Source: a virus
Virus record (IMG/VR): IMGVR_UViG_3300044697_000087
Location: 1-39,765 of that record
DNA length: 39,765 bases
Reading direction: 5' to 3' (one strand)
Shown: one piece after another, positions 16,172 to 27,968 of the stretch
How the letters are laid out: every line of letters begins with the position of its first letter
Numbering within the stretch: the first letter of the stretch is position 1
Program-made: the position numbers and the translations under genes
The notes under the pieces: model-generated
Database searches by the model: none
Seen by the model: only the letters and a program-made list of their open reading frames with translations
What the model was told of the DNA's origin: nothing

Positions 16172-19100
16172 TTATACTGAGTAACTAGAGGTAGCTCTAG
16201 TACACAGAAGGTTTCTGATAGCAGTATCCTGCGTTATAGCTTGGGCCTGCGCAAATTTCACCGCGAGGGTGGCATTTTGCGCGAGCATGCCCGAATAGTA
16301 TGGGTCCCTGTATATCAGGTTCATCGAATCAATCTATTACTTTATGACCAGAATACCCATTAATAATAGGAATTCTGGCGGGAAAACCACTTCGGATTCT
16401 CCTCTCTATGTTTCCATAGAGATTAGACTATCACATCTCCTTTCGAAGCCTCTGGGGTTAGTCGTTCAGGCTGAATGCAAATTAAAGAAACTATAACTTT
16501 GTTAAAAATCCCTAAAATGAATAAAACTTCTACACATTCTTGCCCCTTATCACCACCGTCTTTACGCTGCGGCTTCTAAGTCAATTACCAAAGGTTTTAC
16601 GTGGGCCATCGTAAATCTTAACCCATCCTGGTTTATATGCGTGATCGCCTGTTTTCCAACGACCGCATTATAGTAAACGTCTCTTCCGTTCTCCGACGCA
16701 CCGAGTGCAATTGGAGCTTCCGAGCTCGTTAGGATTCGGATGTTATACACCGATCCATATTCCGATGGCAACGCACTGGCGTTGGTCGGATAATTCCACT
16801 GGTTAATAAATCCGCTACCAGTGAGAGCATCGAGGTCCGATTGTAGTTCCGTAGAGCTCAGCATAAAATATGCCGAACGTACAGGGCCTGTACCGAATCG
16901 GTCCATCCCTTCGATACCGCTTAAAAACTTGTACAAAATCTGTTACTTTTGTGACCAAAAAAGTGTGTCTATAAGACTATTTATAGACACAATTAGTTTG
17001 GCGAGGTCACCTCTTCGGGTTCCCTTCCGTGATTTTATATATTTTCACGGCTCAGACTATCACATACGTCCTTGCGAACGTCCTCTGGGTTTAGTCGTTC
17101 AGGCTGACATTTCCAATGTGTTGTAGTATATGCAATCAACAACAAAGAACCCTTTAAAGAGGGATTAGTTGGCTTCCATGTGTCAAAATTGTAGCCATCG
17201 TAATACGTTTTTCCAAACATATTGTGTCTACAATCTTTTACCAAATAAATACCTTCTTTATCAGGCCATTTATTTCGAATGCTTATCCAATCCATATCTT
17301 GCCCCTTATTATCGCCATTTACGCAGCGACTTCTAAGTCAATTACCAAAGGTTTTACAACGCCTATAAGTTTAGCGTTATTTGTATCTAGGGTCGTTGCC
17401 ACGAGAGAAAAATCTGATACACCCAAATTAGTCGGATTATCATTATTAGCCCCGCCGCCTGCAAATATTTCAGAAGCAGCAGAAACGATGTAGTCGCGGA
17501 GGATAAGCATTCTGTTACTTTTGTGACCTATTTCTAGGCGGGAATCCCTCTTCGGAGACTCCTCACGACCTTTCTTTCTATCCGTCGTGTTCAGACTTTC
17601 GCATCCCTTGCGGGCCGCCTCATTAAGTCGTTCAGGCTGCTTGTGCTTGCCCCTTGTCACCCTGTCGGGCTTCCAAGTCGATTAGAGTCGGTTTATCGAG
17701 GACATTATCTTCATCCTCGGCTTGGCGCATTGCTACGGCTAACCTTTCGGATACCCAAGCTAACACCATTTACGCCAAGCTAAGAGGGCGTGTTATGCGG
17801 CTAAAGCCGAACCCTCTTGATCTTGCAGTATCACCTGTTCATTGATGACACAGCCGGTTCCAAAGAACTTTCTGTTACTTTTGTGACACAAAAGTTATAG
17901 AAACTATAACGTTTGTGCGGGCCGACCTCTTCGGATCAACCTCTCATAGTCACCTATGAGTTCAGACTATAGCATGCGGTCTCACGCTGCGAGGCCGCCC
18001 TCTTGGTTTAGTCGTTGCAGGCGAATATTCGCTTATATCAATTCCATTAAGAACTTTCATTTCCAGAAACATATCCCAGCGCTTCTTAATAGTTTGATCG
18101 TCAAAAGGAATCCCGATCCTCACCCCTTCTGGTCTTGTACATTTATCCAGAAATTTTAAGGCTAAAATGGCTTGAGGCTTCTTGAGTCTCAAGAATGGCA
18201 AAAGACATTCTAGAACATACTTCACGCCACCTTGATCTCGACAATCCCATCGATGCATTGCCCTATATCCCTTGTAACTTTTCTCGGGATAATATTTTCC
18301 CACTCGAAAGAACTCATAAACGCTTTTTATTGATCGTTCATCATTCATTCCGATTCGCACATAAGGGGCATATCCTGGATCGGTTTGTCTCATTTTTCCT
18401 TGCCATTTTGGCGAGTATCTTGAGTTTATTCCTATTGTACCTTCGCCATCAAAAAGTCCGGCAAAGTAAGCTAATTCTTCCTTCTGATTGTCTTGCATAA
18501 TACACCTCATATGGCACCGTATTATACAAGATGTCCCAGTTATTTACAAGAGGTTTTTCATGGCCCTCTTTTACGAAGCCATCTGGGCATCAATGATGTC
18601 CCTTTGTGGCACCTGGGCCGGTGGGTCGATCCCACTATTACCTAACTGTCGAGTCTGTTACTTTAATGACCTATCAACTTGATTATCATACCGATATTCA
18701 CCTTGATAGGCGAGGAAGCCTATTGCACTTCCCTCACAACGTTACCGTCGTGTTCAGAGCACCGCATCTCCGTTGCCATTCATCAAAATTTAATGACGAT
18801 TGGCTTCCATATTCAGGAATATTATTTAAAACGGAGTCTTCTCGCTTGCTGCGTTCACGGCATACAGAACAAATCCCATTGTGATAGGCACTTTCAGTTC
18901 TCATCTTTTCGCAAGAACTGCAAGTAAAACGACAAATTTCTGATTTATTCATGTATTTCCGCCTTTTTGTCCTTCTATGCCGCCAGGAGTTCAAAGTCTA
19001 TTAGAGAAGATTTTACTACCACACAATCTATGGTAGGTGGGACTAAGGGTCTTGGCCTCATAAATCTGCAAGTTGTTCCGCCGTTCACTGGCATACTGAC

Positions 19101-23946: not shown

Positions 23947-26207
23947 TTATACGTTAGCCCCTTCTTCCATCTGAGCATGGGCGCCCATCGCGTTCCCCAT
24001 GATCTGAGCCAAGAAGTCGTTGCTCATAGCCGTGCGCTTAGCATCCGCCTTCTCAGCATCTTCTTTCCCTTCCTGCTGATAGTCGAATTGATCGAGCTCC
24101 CGCATCTTGCGCGCTTCCTCTACTTCTCCAATTTTAATGCCCACGTCAACCATTTTCTCCAATGCCTCCATTTTAGCTTTGGTAGACATAGCGCGGTTGT
24201 GGGAGATCTCCGAAAGACGCTCTTCAAAGAGACCAATGTCGGCTTCAGCCCTTCCGTGGCGTTCCCGTGCGGTAGCGATATAAGACGCAGATTTTGCATA
24301 TAACTCCTTCAGCTTCGCTTCTTCTAGAGCGTGCTGAACTTGCGTCGCATGTTCCTGATTAGCGCCTGCTTTTTGTTCTTGTTGTTGGAGGAACTCCATC
24401 GCTTCGGCTTTACCCGTGATATTCATATCCTTGATAATGAAGCTAGGAGGAAACACCTCGCGACCAAACGCTTGGTTGATGTCCAAGAGCTGCTGCGCGT
24501 GTAGATTCTTTTGCGTTGGCGTGAGGTTGCCCTCTTCAACGATCGTCTGGAACTTAGCAAATACCCTTGAATAGAAGTGCTCAGTCGGCTCTTCCCCGAT
24601 GATCATGCGCACTTTGTCCGCATTCCAGTTATTCAGTACAATCTGAAGGCACACATGCCCAAGCTGTTTCAGTGCTAAATCCCACTGATCAAAGTACTTT
24701 TGCAATACGGTCAGATTCGCAGCTTGCTTGATCATCGTCGTAAGGGCGCTAGCGTTCTTGTCGTTCTGTGCAGACCAATTCTCGAGATCCACCCCCGATA
24801 CCCCAAAGATTAGGGTTCTGAGGCGATCAGCCAAAGCAAAATCCGACTCCGGTACTACGTTGGGCTGAATTTTCTCGCAGTCGGTCATCTCATAGCCTTC
24901 GTTGATAATCACGTCCCAACCTTGCCCCGACTTCTTGACGTTATCCTCATTCGCAACAGCGCCAACCTTACGCTTCCATCCAGCGTTAATCGTCGCTTCT
25001 TTCTGATCGTGAGAAATTATGATTTGGCGATTCATCAAGTAATTACAATCACGCATGCAACGCGTTAAGCCTCTTACCCTTAAATCATAATAATTATTAT
25101 GAGGTTCGTAGTTCCAGAGCATCGGAATAAACGGGCAATCTCCCGTCACGCCGAGCGGGTTGTCTCCCTGGAACATCAGCTGATCGTTTAGAACGACTGC
25201 CAACTTCCAACAAGGAACCTCCATCGTGACCGGCTCCATATCGGGGACCTGATAAAGGATCTGTTCCAGATTCGCTTCTCCCCCAGCAAAGTCGAAGAAT
25301 TGGTTCCTAGACCTGCTGTACAGCCTCTTTTTCCTCGTTTTCCACTTGTACCATACGTATGAGAGCACCATTAGGTCGTTCCGGGCCATATTATAATTCT
25401 CTGGGAGGAAGTAAAAGCTGCCATATCTTTGGGGCGTACCGCTCATCGGAGCTATATTTTCGATCTTATCTGGAAATCTACTTTCAGCCTCTTTTTTTGA
25501 TATATACTCCTGACACCAAATGAATTGCGCATCAGCAAAGTTATAATCCCGGGCATATGGATCCACGAGAAACGAGTTGTACTCCCACAATTTAACTTTT
25601 AATTCACCCTGTGCAGGATCGTCGCCAGTGTAGTCTAAATAGGGCTGTAAGAGAACAAGGCCCGTGATGCAGGCTTGCTCAGCCCCTCTTGAGAATTGCT
25701 CGTGGATGCCTTCCTTGTTGGCCACATGCGTCATTAAACGCGTGTATTGGTCCGTCGTCCGAGGGTCTGCGCCATCCGCAGGTATGTAACTGAACGTCTT
25801 ACGATGTTGGCGTTGATAGCCCGTAACCATGTTGATAGGTTGTTGCAGCAGATTAAAATAAAACTGCTGAAACCCGAGAGACGGGGTGTAGTTGAAGTAC
25901 CGATTGACGAACGTTTGTGCAAACTGTTACTTTTATGACCAGAATACCCATTAATAATAGGAATTCTGGCGGGGAAACCTCTTCGGATCTCCCTCCGCAA
26001 TTTCTTGTATCTTTGCGGATCAGACTGTCGCTTGCCTTTCGGCCCCTCTCGCTCAGTCGTTCAGCGTGCTTTCGCTTCGCCCTTGTTAGCCCATCGGCCG
26101 TCCAAGAAATCAGAGAAGGTTTATAATGCTGACCCTGCTCTTAAGCCAGCATAAAAAAGTGTGTCGATGTTGGATTGGTTCCATCTAGCCTGTTCTATCT
26201 CAGGCAT
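23947..26207 (-). CDS. Portal protein, two exons (P22-like)
   Basis: Exon 1 is 26207-26144 (from ATG, MPEIEQARWNQSNIDTLFYA) and exon 2 is 25919-23947; joined 2037 bases, 678 residues. The joint makes a Ser codon and gives FYAG-S-QTF, in register with FYAGDQ..W of P22-type portals. Downstream PINMVTGYQRQHRK, GADPRTTDQYT, LWEYNSFLVDPYARD and the helical barrel-like C-terminus (EEARKMRELDQFDY) fit the family. It forms the dodecameric ring at one capsid vertex through which DNA is packaged and ejected. Without splicing exon 1 ends within a few codons. Confidence 0.88.
25920..26143 (-). ncRNA. Group I intron F in portal gene (224 nt)
   Basis: The exon ends ATGCTGGCT and pairs over nine positions with GGUCAGCAU (P1, U-G at the cut). 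The intron ends AAAAGTAACAGTTTG. The core has GAACGACTGAGCG and GCGACAGTCTGATC at about 26020-26065 (R/S-like). No ORF. 42 bases near the 3' end are identical to capsid intron A. No clear P10 is visible. It closely resembles the capsid introns, so the same element has entered two essential genes. Confidence 0.83.
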
Positions 26208-26337
26208 TTACACTTATTTTATCAGCCCATAGATCAGGCTGAAATTTCGAGTAGAGGTTGTCTAACCACTGTCGAACGTTCACTTGATTCGGTTCTAATG
26301 CATTGTTCCAAGGGGGATAATAGAATGTGATAAATAC
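26200..26337 (-). pseudogene. Start-less coding-like fragment upstream of portal
   Basis: A frame of about 46 codons reads EVFITFYYPPWNNALEPNQV, then RQWLDNLYSKFQPDLWADKI, ending in TGA that overlaps the portal ATG (AATGCCTGA). It looks like real protein but has no ATG, GTG or TTG at its beginning; the first in-frame option is GTG, giving 27 residues. It could be a decayed gene, a short GTG-started gene coupled to portal, or chance. Confidence 0.35.
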
Positions 26338-26911: not shown

Positions 26912-27333
26912 AGGGGTCCCTTTTCCACTCGTTCCCAAGCGATCGTAGCTGTTTCGATAAAGTCCTCCTTCTTTAGATCCATGTCAATCGCCCCTTGAGC
27001 CGCCATAGTGAGAGTCACTGCTGTTATTTCCTTTACGGAGGTTCCCTCTTTCGCAAAAAATCGGATCAATTTCTCGTAAATCTCGGTCATTTTTTCTATG
27101 TTGTCCATCCCCCTCCTATGATCCCATCCATCGTCAATAAGTAAATGGATGTCTTCTCGAGATAAATCCGTGATTTTGGCACATCTAATTAGCACTCCAA
27201 TACACCCTAGGATCTTGGTTATCACCCTGGGATTTTTTTGACGGACAAATTCGTCAATATCTTCATGAAAAGAAGCTATCTCTTGAATCAAATCTTCTCT
27301 TTCTTTTTCTGTGAGCTCTTCTAATAATTTCAT
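26908..27333 (-). CDS. Helical protein with two family repeats
   Basis: 141 residues from ATG 27333, which overlaps the RNA-ligase stop. It contains two copies of the small-protein pattern: ILGCIGVLIRCAKITDLSRE with DIHLLIDDGWD, and TLTMAAQGAIDMDLKKED with FIETATIAWERV. It looks like a fusion or an internal duplication within the tandem paralogue cluster. No known domain. Confidence 0.6.
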   Translation of the reverse strand: MKLLEELTEKEREDLIQEIASFHEDIDEFVRQKNPRVITKILGCIGVLIRCAKITDLSREDIHLLIDDGWDHRRGMDNIEKMTEIYEKLIRFFAKEGTSVKEITAVTLTMAAQGAIDMDLKKEDFIETATIAWERVEKGPL

Positions 27334-27968
27334 GCAAAATCCTTGCACTTCAGCTTCCACATGATCGGATTTCCGTTTCTAAAGAGCATGAGGGGTTCGG
27401 ATCTGGCAACAATACCCTCCATCGTCTGCGACTCTGTGCTGCATTGACTAGGAGGATCTTGCGTAACGAACTCCACAATCTGCGATTCGCTCATGAATCC
27501 TAGGTCCGGCACCATAGGAACGCCTAATGACTCCGCAACCCCTTTCACGTCCTCTTGTTGAAGCCACCACTCACCCACACGTACATCAAATAGTATGAAG
27601 CCCGCTTCTTTGCGGTACTTACCTCCACAGGCCTGGATTTTGTGGCCGTACCCTTCGCCATAAAGGATGATGCGGGATTCCTTGTTTCCCTTAAAAACGC
27701 CCAGAAGTTTATCTGGAGGAAATAGTTCTTCTAGAGTTCTCAGCAAATGAGGCGGAATTTGAGCGTCATTCGTGCGTCCTGCAAACAGAACATCTTTCCC
27801 ACACCCAGGATCGCGGATTATCACCCTAATGTTGGTCCCATCCACCTTTTCCGATACGCGCCACCATCCAACGCTAGCGAACTCGGGCTGCGCATAATCG
27901 CCCATAATGAGCTCGCGTTTTGCGTCTATGCGTCGTTTCCACAGACTATGAATTTTTGGATATTCCAT
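27330..27968 (-). CDS. RNA ligase, Rnl2-like
   Basis: 212 residues. Nucleotidyltransferase motifs in order: motif I KVDGTN with the AMP-accepting Lys41, motif III ILYGEGYG (101-108), motif IIIa GFILFDV (123-129), motif IV MEGIVAR (183-189) and motif V WKLKCKDF (204-211). The N-terminus YPKIHSLWKRR is usual for small phage Rnl2-type ligases. It seals nicked RNA, as in repair of tRNAs cut by host anticodon nucleases. GGGAGG precedes the ATG. It is embedded among the helical paralogues. No kinase/phosphatase partner is seen. Confidence 0.85.
   Translation of the reverse strand: MEYPKIHSLWKRRIDAKRELIMGDYAQPEFASVGWWRVSEKVDGTNIRVIIRDPGCGKDVLFAGRTNDAQIPPHLLRTLEELFPPDKLLGVFKGNKESRIILYGEGYGHKIQACGGKYRKEAGFILFDVRVGEWWLQQEDVKGVAESLGVPMVPDLGFMSESQIVEFVTQDPPSQCSTESQTMEGIVARSEPLMLFRNGNPIMWKLKCKDFA

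Follow-up and report, generated by a model that had tools for sequence, protein, structure and literature searches.

A phage contig of 39,765 bases from IMG/VR (the window, meaning the whole stretch of DNA analyzed) carries a 44-nucleotide (nt) insert in its major capsid gene that we interpret, with a probability of ∼0.82, as a non-autonomous intron derived from group I (the guest). The ribozyme core of the neighboring full-length group I intron (the host) would remove the guest, and then itself. The guests are called group I-derived dependent introns, not group I introns, because they lack the catalytic core while the splice-site features are kept.

Anatomy of the insert and its tether

The capsid gene lies on the minus strand (∼19211 to 16184) and is split into many exons. 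Uninterrupted relatives are abundant, so that exon boundaries could be set by comparison. The protein of an uninterrupted relative matched TIGR04387 (N4-gp56 major capsid family) at 85.6 bits (cut-off 60) and also PHROG 1357, and by these profile matches the focal gene is an N4-gp56 family major capsid gene. The identification was based on the profiles because the predicted capsid structure reached a predicted local distance difference test (pLDDT) score of only 29. No isolated phage carrying a capsid of the focal type was present in the INPHARED collection.

The insert reads TCGGCTTTAGCCGCATAACACGCCCTCTTAGCTTGGCGTAAATG (minus strand, 17810-17767); it is preceded by ...CAAGAGGGT and followed by GTGTTAGCTTGG. 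It follows a U, ends in G, contains an in-frame TAA and, its length of 44 not being a multiple of 3, shifts the frame. Deletion of the insert in silico yielded QDQEG/VLAWVSERLAVAMRQAED (in site names a slash marks the insertion point), collinear with 80 uninterrupted relatives. Its P1 (AAGAGGGU/GCCCUCUU; 8 base pairs, bp) has a U.G pair at the splice site, and its P10 (UAACAC/GUGUUA) has 6 bp. The features of the guest and its host are as follows, with P1a and P1b denoting the P1 helices of guest and host, respectively.

17767..17810, minus strand: candidate coreless guest intron, 44 nt, in the capsid gene at site QDQEG/VLAW
17811..17818, minus strand: P1a 5′ strand, exon AAGAGGGU
17782..17789, minus strand: P1a 3′ strand or internal guide GCCCUCUU, U.G pair at the splice site
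17790..17795, minus strand: P10 intron strand, UAACAC
17761..17766, minus strand: P10 exon strand, GUGUUA, the first bases of the 3′ exon; compensatory changes
17771..17780, minus strand: tether 5′ strand GCUUGGCGUA, in the tail of the guest
17720..17729, minus strand: tether 3′ strand UGCGCCAAGC, in the exon, abutting P1 of the host intron
17713..17719, minus strand: host P1b 5′ strand CGAGGAU, pairing with GUCCUCG at 17703-17697
17508..17712, minus strand: full group I host intron, 205 nt, site AED/LILRD, proposed to splice both introns; core-model match at 17591-17696 (108 bits), covarying P3-P6

The original prediction, an earlier reading of this DNA, had given the position, in-frame TAA and frame shift of the insert, its 8-pair P1 with U-G at the site, its 6-pair P10, its ends and the exact family spacing after removal, and all of these proved correct. 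It had also stated that only 15 bases stand where the core should be. A covariance model of the core of the full introns indeed found no core in the insert, but the 15 nt past P1 are not an empty gap, since a conserved helix strand lies there.

This strand, the tail GCUUGGCGUA, pairs with exon sequence UGCGCCAAGC, and the resulting helix (the tether) ends exactly where P1b (CGAGGAU/GUCCUCG) starts. An unconstrained RNA fold of the composite placed P1a, the 10-bp tether (in the centroid) and P1b side by side (z = -4.25). Across the 36 capsid guests described below the tether measured 7–13 bp, and its exon strand ended 0–1 nt before P1b in 32. Fully compensated variants were observed in L173 (GCUUGUCUUA/UGAGACAAGC) and, at another site, in L182 (GCUUGUCUCA/UGAGACAAGC), as well as in L367 (CUGAUUCUGUAA/UUACAGAAUCAG), L402 (CUGAUUUUGUAA/UUACAAAAUCAG) and L392 (CUGGUUUUGUAA/UUACAAAACCAG). 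In L212, L438, L439 and L440 the host intron is located 6 nt upstream (QA/ED) and the tether shifts along with it; that of L212 (GCAUAGCUA/UAGCUAUGC) ends 1 nt from P1b.

Because a MAFFT alignment of the tails misplaces bulges, the tether was tested by energy swaps rather than by column counts. When tails were swapped among the 36 guests (20,000 permutations), the native pairing energies summed to -463.7 kcal/mol, compared with a mean of -259.2 and a minimum of -343.1 kcal/mol for the permuted sets. The p-value was 5e-5 (the permutation floor) for all 36 guests and for those at the focal EG/VL site alone, 0.002 at FG/TG and 0.008 at YG/TY.

The splice-site helices covary as well. P10 was 95.8% paired over 12 distinct sequences, a value equaled by 0 of 500 column shuffles, and slid registers were at most 64% paired. 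Its variants change together with the exon (GUGUUA/UAACAC, GUAUUA/UAAUAC, GUACUU/GAGUAC) and do so independently of the tether. Among relatives, P1 shows the pairs UUCGGU/GCCGAA vs. UUUGGU/GCCAAA and CUGCAU/GUGCAG vs. CUGCGU/GCGCAG. Recurrence at the same site in 14 other contigs, P10 covariation and the z-score of the composite fold thus place the focal element beyond chance.

Recurrence in capsid and portal genes

A search pattern combining the internal guide with the tail matched 14 contigs, every one at the focal codon; coreless elements were found at this codon in 14 other IMG/VR contigs and in one contig of a metagenome-assembled genome (MAG). The EG/VL set includes five long elements (950–976 nt; L155, L204, L208, L210 and L212) and one of 325 nt, with the extra length all within the P1 loop. 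The P1 loops of L155 and L204 encode Pfam LAGLIDADG_1 proteins (above the curated cut-off), and the L212 guest encodes a similar protein of 288 amino acids with LAGLIDADG-like motifs; the long guests may be mobile on their own. The P1 loop of the 325-nt guest (L173:2268-2592) contains a small open reading frame (ORF; MEWIQFLILIITLG...) for which Pfam gave no match.

Exon mapping of all fetched capsid genes revealed further short insertions at FG/TG (YG/TY in a more distant family), CI/IN, RLA/VA and one more site. The other short gaps in these maps were in-frame length differences of 15–18 nt. DNA-pattern searches for guests with P1 variants returned chance matches only, and those for FG/TG mostly chance matches. 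Five guests came from independently assembled GTDB MAG contigs (L435, L437-L440). The catalogue comprises 36 distinct guests at six capsid sites, 30 of them 32–75 nt long, and six further guests in the portal gene, the window's own included. In all 36 a U precedes the insert and G is terminal. An automatic parse gave helices of ≥6 bp (P1) and ≥4 bp (P10) in all but L211, where the script took a wrong P1; the structure-only scan described next parsed it correctly. The guests therefore show the splice-site features of group I introns (U before the 5′ site, U.G in P1, terminal G and P10), and they lack the catalytic core (P3-P8, with the G site in P7).

The structure-only scan used geometry alone: a host core motif, a host P1, a tether within 0–1 nt of it, a P1a with U.G, a terminal G and a P10 with 4 bp or more. 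Guests were flagged before 29 of 228 host introns, compared with 1 of 684 shuffled upstream regions. Random positions gave 0 of 1135, and sliding the anchor by 4–48 nt gave 0–1 of 227; with a slide of 2 nt, 11 were still flagged, as expected from long helices that are merely shortened. The scan recovered known guests and added about 16, of which three (L006, L181 and L184) lie in the portal gene. A portal homology check added L117, L193 and a second guest in the window, listed here with its host.

26199..26235, minus strand: candidate guest intron, 37 nt, portal gene, site SKFQP/IEQAR; P1 UCAGCCU/GGGCUGA, P10 AUAGA/UCUAU
25920..26143, minus strand: group I intron acting as its putative host; core-model match at 26020-26124 (90 bits)

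The tether of this portal guest is AAAA(U)AAGUGU/ACACUUUUUU (26162-26153). A different insertion was seen in the portal gene of L160: 51 nt with a long, GC-rich hairpin, placed between the Arg codons CGG and CGA, with an in-frame TGA and no following intron. It possibly reflects bypassing, an error or something else.

Rfam at gathering scores gave no match in the whole window, and a purpose-built core model (R1) was therefore made; the last capsid intron scored 27.6 bits against RF00028, under the cut-off of 50. That the full introns are genuine group I introns was shown by aligning 24 of them, which gave P3, P4, P5 and P6 with compensatory change at 17 of 20 pairs; the neighboring hosts combine this covarying P3-P6 core with U/G ends. 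The R1 model scored 108 bits in the intron just downstream of the focal element and found no core in any guest, including those of 325–976 nt, so that a core hidden in the large P1 loops was rejected. Every catalogued guest precedes a full group I intron, with 24–91 nt of exon between them. This exon is conserved at the protein level and changes almost only synonymously.

In the close family, all contigs seen with the AED/LILRD intron, a set partly chosen by guest sequence, also carry an upstream guest, at three different guest sites. This co-occurrence suggests co-mobility or mutual need.

Proposed use of the neighboring core and competing explanations

The sequences show the absence of a core, P1, P10, the tether, covariation, the dependence on a neighbor and the conservation of the exon as protein. 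The splicing reaction itself, P1a docking on the neighbor's core and the order of the two steps are inferred. The guest would bring its own splice-site helices (P1a and P10) and terminal G, but no ribozyme. By pairing with the exon just before the next intron's P1, its tail would turn the intervening exon into a looped-out hairpin. P1a, this tether hairpin and P1b would then line up directly 5′ of the neighbor's P3. Hairpins P2 and P2.1 are common between P1 and P3 of group I introns; the composite would mimic an ordinary P1-P2-P2.1-P3 arrangement, with the tether as P2 and P1b as P2.1. The neighbor's core would then catalyze attack by guanosine and joining of the exons at the guest. The 3′ splice site of the guest, reached through P10, would sit upstream of the core in the P2 loop. 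The guest would have to leave first, because the core leaves together with the host. Its departure would take away one strand of the tether, P1b would dock, and the neighbor would splice itself out to give an intact capsid mRNA.

The original prediction had proposed that one of six related full introns may splice the insert in trans. The insert does look like a group I-type intron pared down to P1 and P10 that depends on another intron, but the partner appears to be specific, namely the next intron downstream (17712-17508), and to be tied in cis by the covarying helix between the guest tail (17780-17771) and the exon (17729-17720) adjoining that intron's P1. True trans splicing by any free or excised phage group I intron RNA, with the tether only exposing sites or tuning folding, is improbable. 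The phage does have several related introns, and trans excision of introns by engineered group I ribozymes is on record (PMC4094466). Yet the tether adjoins one particular neighbor and moves when that neighbor moves, a full intron lies directly downstream of all guests found, and the guide sequence sits in the guest, not in the ribozyme.

We regard exon skipping as very unlikely. Here P1a, the neighbor's core and the neighbor's 3′ site would remove guest, short exon and host at once, leaving a shorter product; two neighboring introns can indeed form one ribozyme, with the exon skipped, as known for Twort orf142 and engineered Tetrahymena pairs (PMC10136302). P10, however, covaries with the guest's own 3′ exon, the intervening exon is conserved as protein, and in many cases its length (26, 32, 50 nt) is no multiple of 3.

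The chance that the insert is a dead deletion remnant or an assembly artefact of a once-full intron is minimal. More distant relatives (e.g., L100) do have full introns at the equivalent site, and single metagenome contigs can be misassembled. The original prediction had allowed for a newly arisen deletion or an assembly deletion. Neither is supported: the guests form an old, diversified and recurring class, found in many contigs and in separate, independent MAG assemblies. Their P1, P10 and tether show compensatory changes, and some of them have intact endonuclease genes. Three helices would not persist in a remnant while the capsid frame is under selection, and covariation across sites refutes this explanation in the main.

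T4 gene 60 and the yeast mitochondrial byp elements are ∼50-nt hairpin inserts with stops in genes, and the focal element is likewise a short hairpin insert with an in-frame stop. Programmed translational bypassing, in which ribosomes hop over the insert, nevertheless merits hardly any credence: matched take-off and landing codons were absent from the focal set (take-off GGU vs. pre-landing AUG, UUG or others), it predicts no P10 covariation and no tether to the following intron, the covarying helices of the guests are those of RNA splicing, and the same site also holds inserts of 325–976 nt. Bypassing and exon skipping were thus rejected on mismatched codons, P10 covariation and exon conservation.

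Several points weigh against removal of the guests by the neighboring core. All evidence is DNA sequence, and all of it is metagenomic. The relatives share ancestry, and the shuffle p-values therefore overstate independence. At CI/IN the tail-swap p-value was 0.12 (n = 4), and the tether is weak or interrupted in L157, L203, L210 and L211. Hosts with endonuclease genes (L191, L203 and L157) score poorly or not at all on the core model, their core being deduced from the conserved 5′ motif. No P9.0-like pairing that would place the terminal G of the guest was noticed, in work that included no systematic search for P9.0.

Stop endings, related systems and significance

The other full introns of the window's capsid gene are the following.

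18650..19029, minus strand: full capsid intron at the PPT site, broken by an extra open region
17868..18576, minus strand: full capsid intron at QMA/FFG, with an endonuclease ORF at 17962-18510
16934..17372, minus strand: full capsid intron at NNA/YKF
16330..16620, minus strand: full capsid intron at the NQDG/Y site, 3′ end approximate

An RNA ligase-like ORF (PHROG 548) is located at 27330-27968 of the window, between the terminase and portal genes.

Reading from the exon into the insert ends in Ala-Ala-stop in 29 of 36 guests. In a subset of 29 guests this ending was in frame in 23 and occurred zero times in the other two frames, and of 239 full-length insertions in related loci 89 ended so in frame, compared with 0 and 1 in the other frames. 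Such endings are present in the window at 17785-17810, 16562-17372, 17600-17712 and 18970-19029. The endings include ELLAA, YALAA, QAQAA, SALAA, VLAA, LLAA and NYAIAA, which are near the ssrA tag. All four Ala codons are used, which indicates selection on the peptide. The stops argue that the guests are not meant for read-through, and the tags likely direct ClpXP-type proteolysis to capsid fragments that come from unspliced RNA.

In introns of a distant family (e.g., L099, L123 and L183), read-through without the Ala-Ala ending often terminates in Ile, Val or Phe, then Ser or Asn, then stop (EVAIS, VVFN, AYGVS). This may reflect RNA structure or another tag.

Self-splicing group I introns are known in phages, as in T4 td, Twort orf142 and the capsid gene of mycobacteriophage LittleE (PMC3706429). 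Like these, the guests follow U, end in G, have a P1 with U.G and a P10, in some cases encode LAGLIDADG proteins, and reside in a capsid gene. Unlike them, they have no P3-P9 core and cannot self-splice, and both of their splice sites lie 5′ of the proposed ribozyme. Engineered trans-excision ribozymes and spliceozymes excise short RNA segments defined by P1, P9.0 and P10 and join the flanks (PMC4094466), a precedent for the proposed chemistry. Like the substrates of these ribozymes, the guests are short, are bounded by P1 and P10 and would be served by a core other than their own; the engineered systems, however, are man-made, act in trans and keep the guide in the ribozyme, whereas the guests are natural, would act in cis, and carry guide and tether themselves.

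Euglena chloroplast group III introns (PMC4424553) are similarly short, have lost the catalytic domain and are thought to rely on shared machinery, but they derive from group II and their presumed helper is general and acts in trans, in contrast to one specific adjacent intron. In Twort orf142 and tandem Tetrahymena introns (PMC10136302), two introns and a short exon likewise behave as one ribozyme; there both introns have cores and the exon is skipped, whereas a guest pair has one core and the exon would be kept. Split, trans-spliced organelle group I introns (PMC3873408) also extend the reaction beyond one continuous intron, but their pieces jointly build one core from two transcripts; the guest contributes no part of a core, the neighbor's core is complete, and that one core is proposed to serve two introns. 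We found no report of a natural coreless group I-type intron, or of such tags, among the open-access PubMed Central papers searched, and coreless dependent guests would be a new kind of intron.

Taken as a whole, these data probably reflect (i) a natural class of coreless group I-type introns, partly mobile, each drawing on the ribozyme of its downstream neighbor by way of a P2-like tether; and (ii) ssrA-like, in-frame C-terminal tags, encoded by guests and hosts, that would target for destruction the capsid fragments translated from unspliced RNA. The '..LAA' tags encoded by the introns suggest quality control by phages over the products of unspliced structural mRNA. If the proposal is true, tiny (32–75 nt), covarying dependent introns are widespread, gene callers go wrong on the capsid and portal genes of phages, and a short insertion of non-triplet length in a phage gene may be an intron. 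Ribozyme-less dependent introns are a key intermediate in models of the origin of the spliceosome from self-splicing introns; group III introns exemplify the loss of the ribozyme for group II, and the guests would be the group I counterpart.
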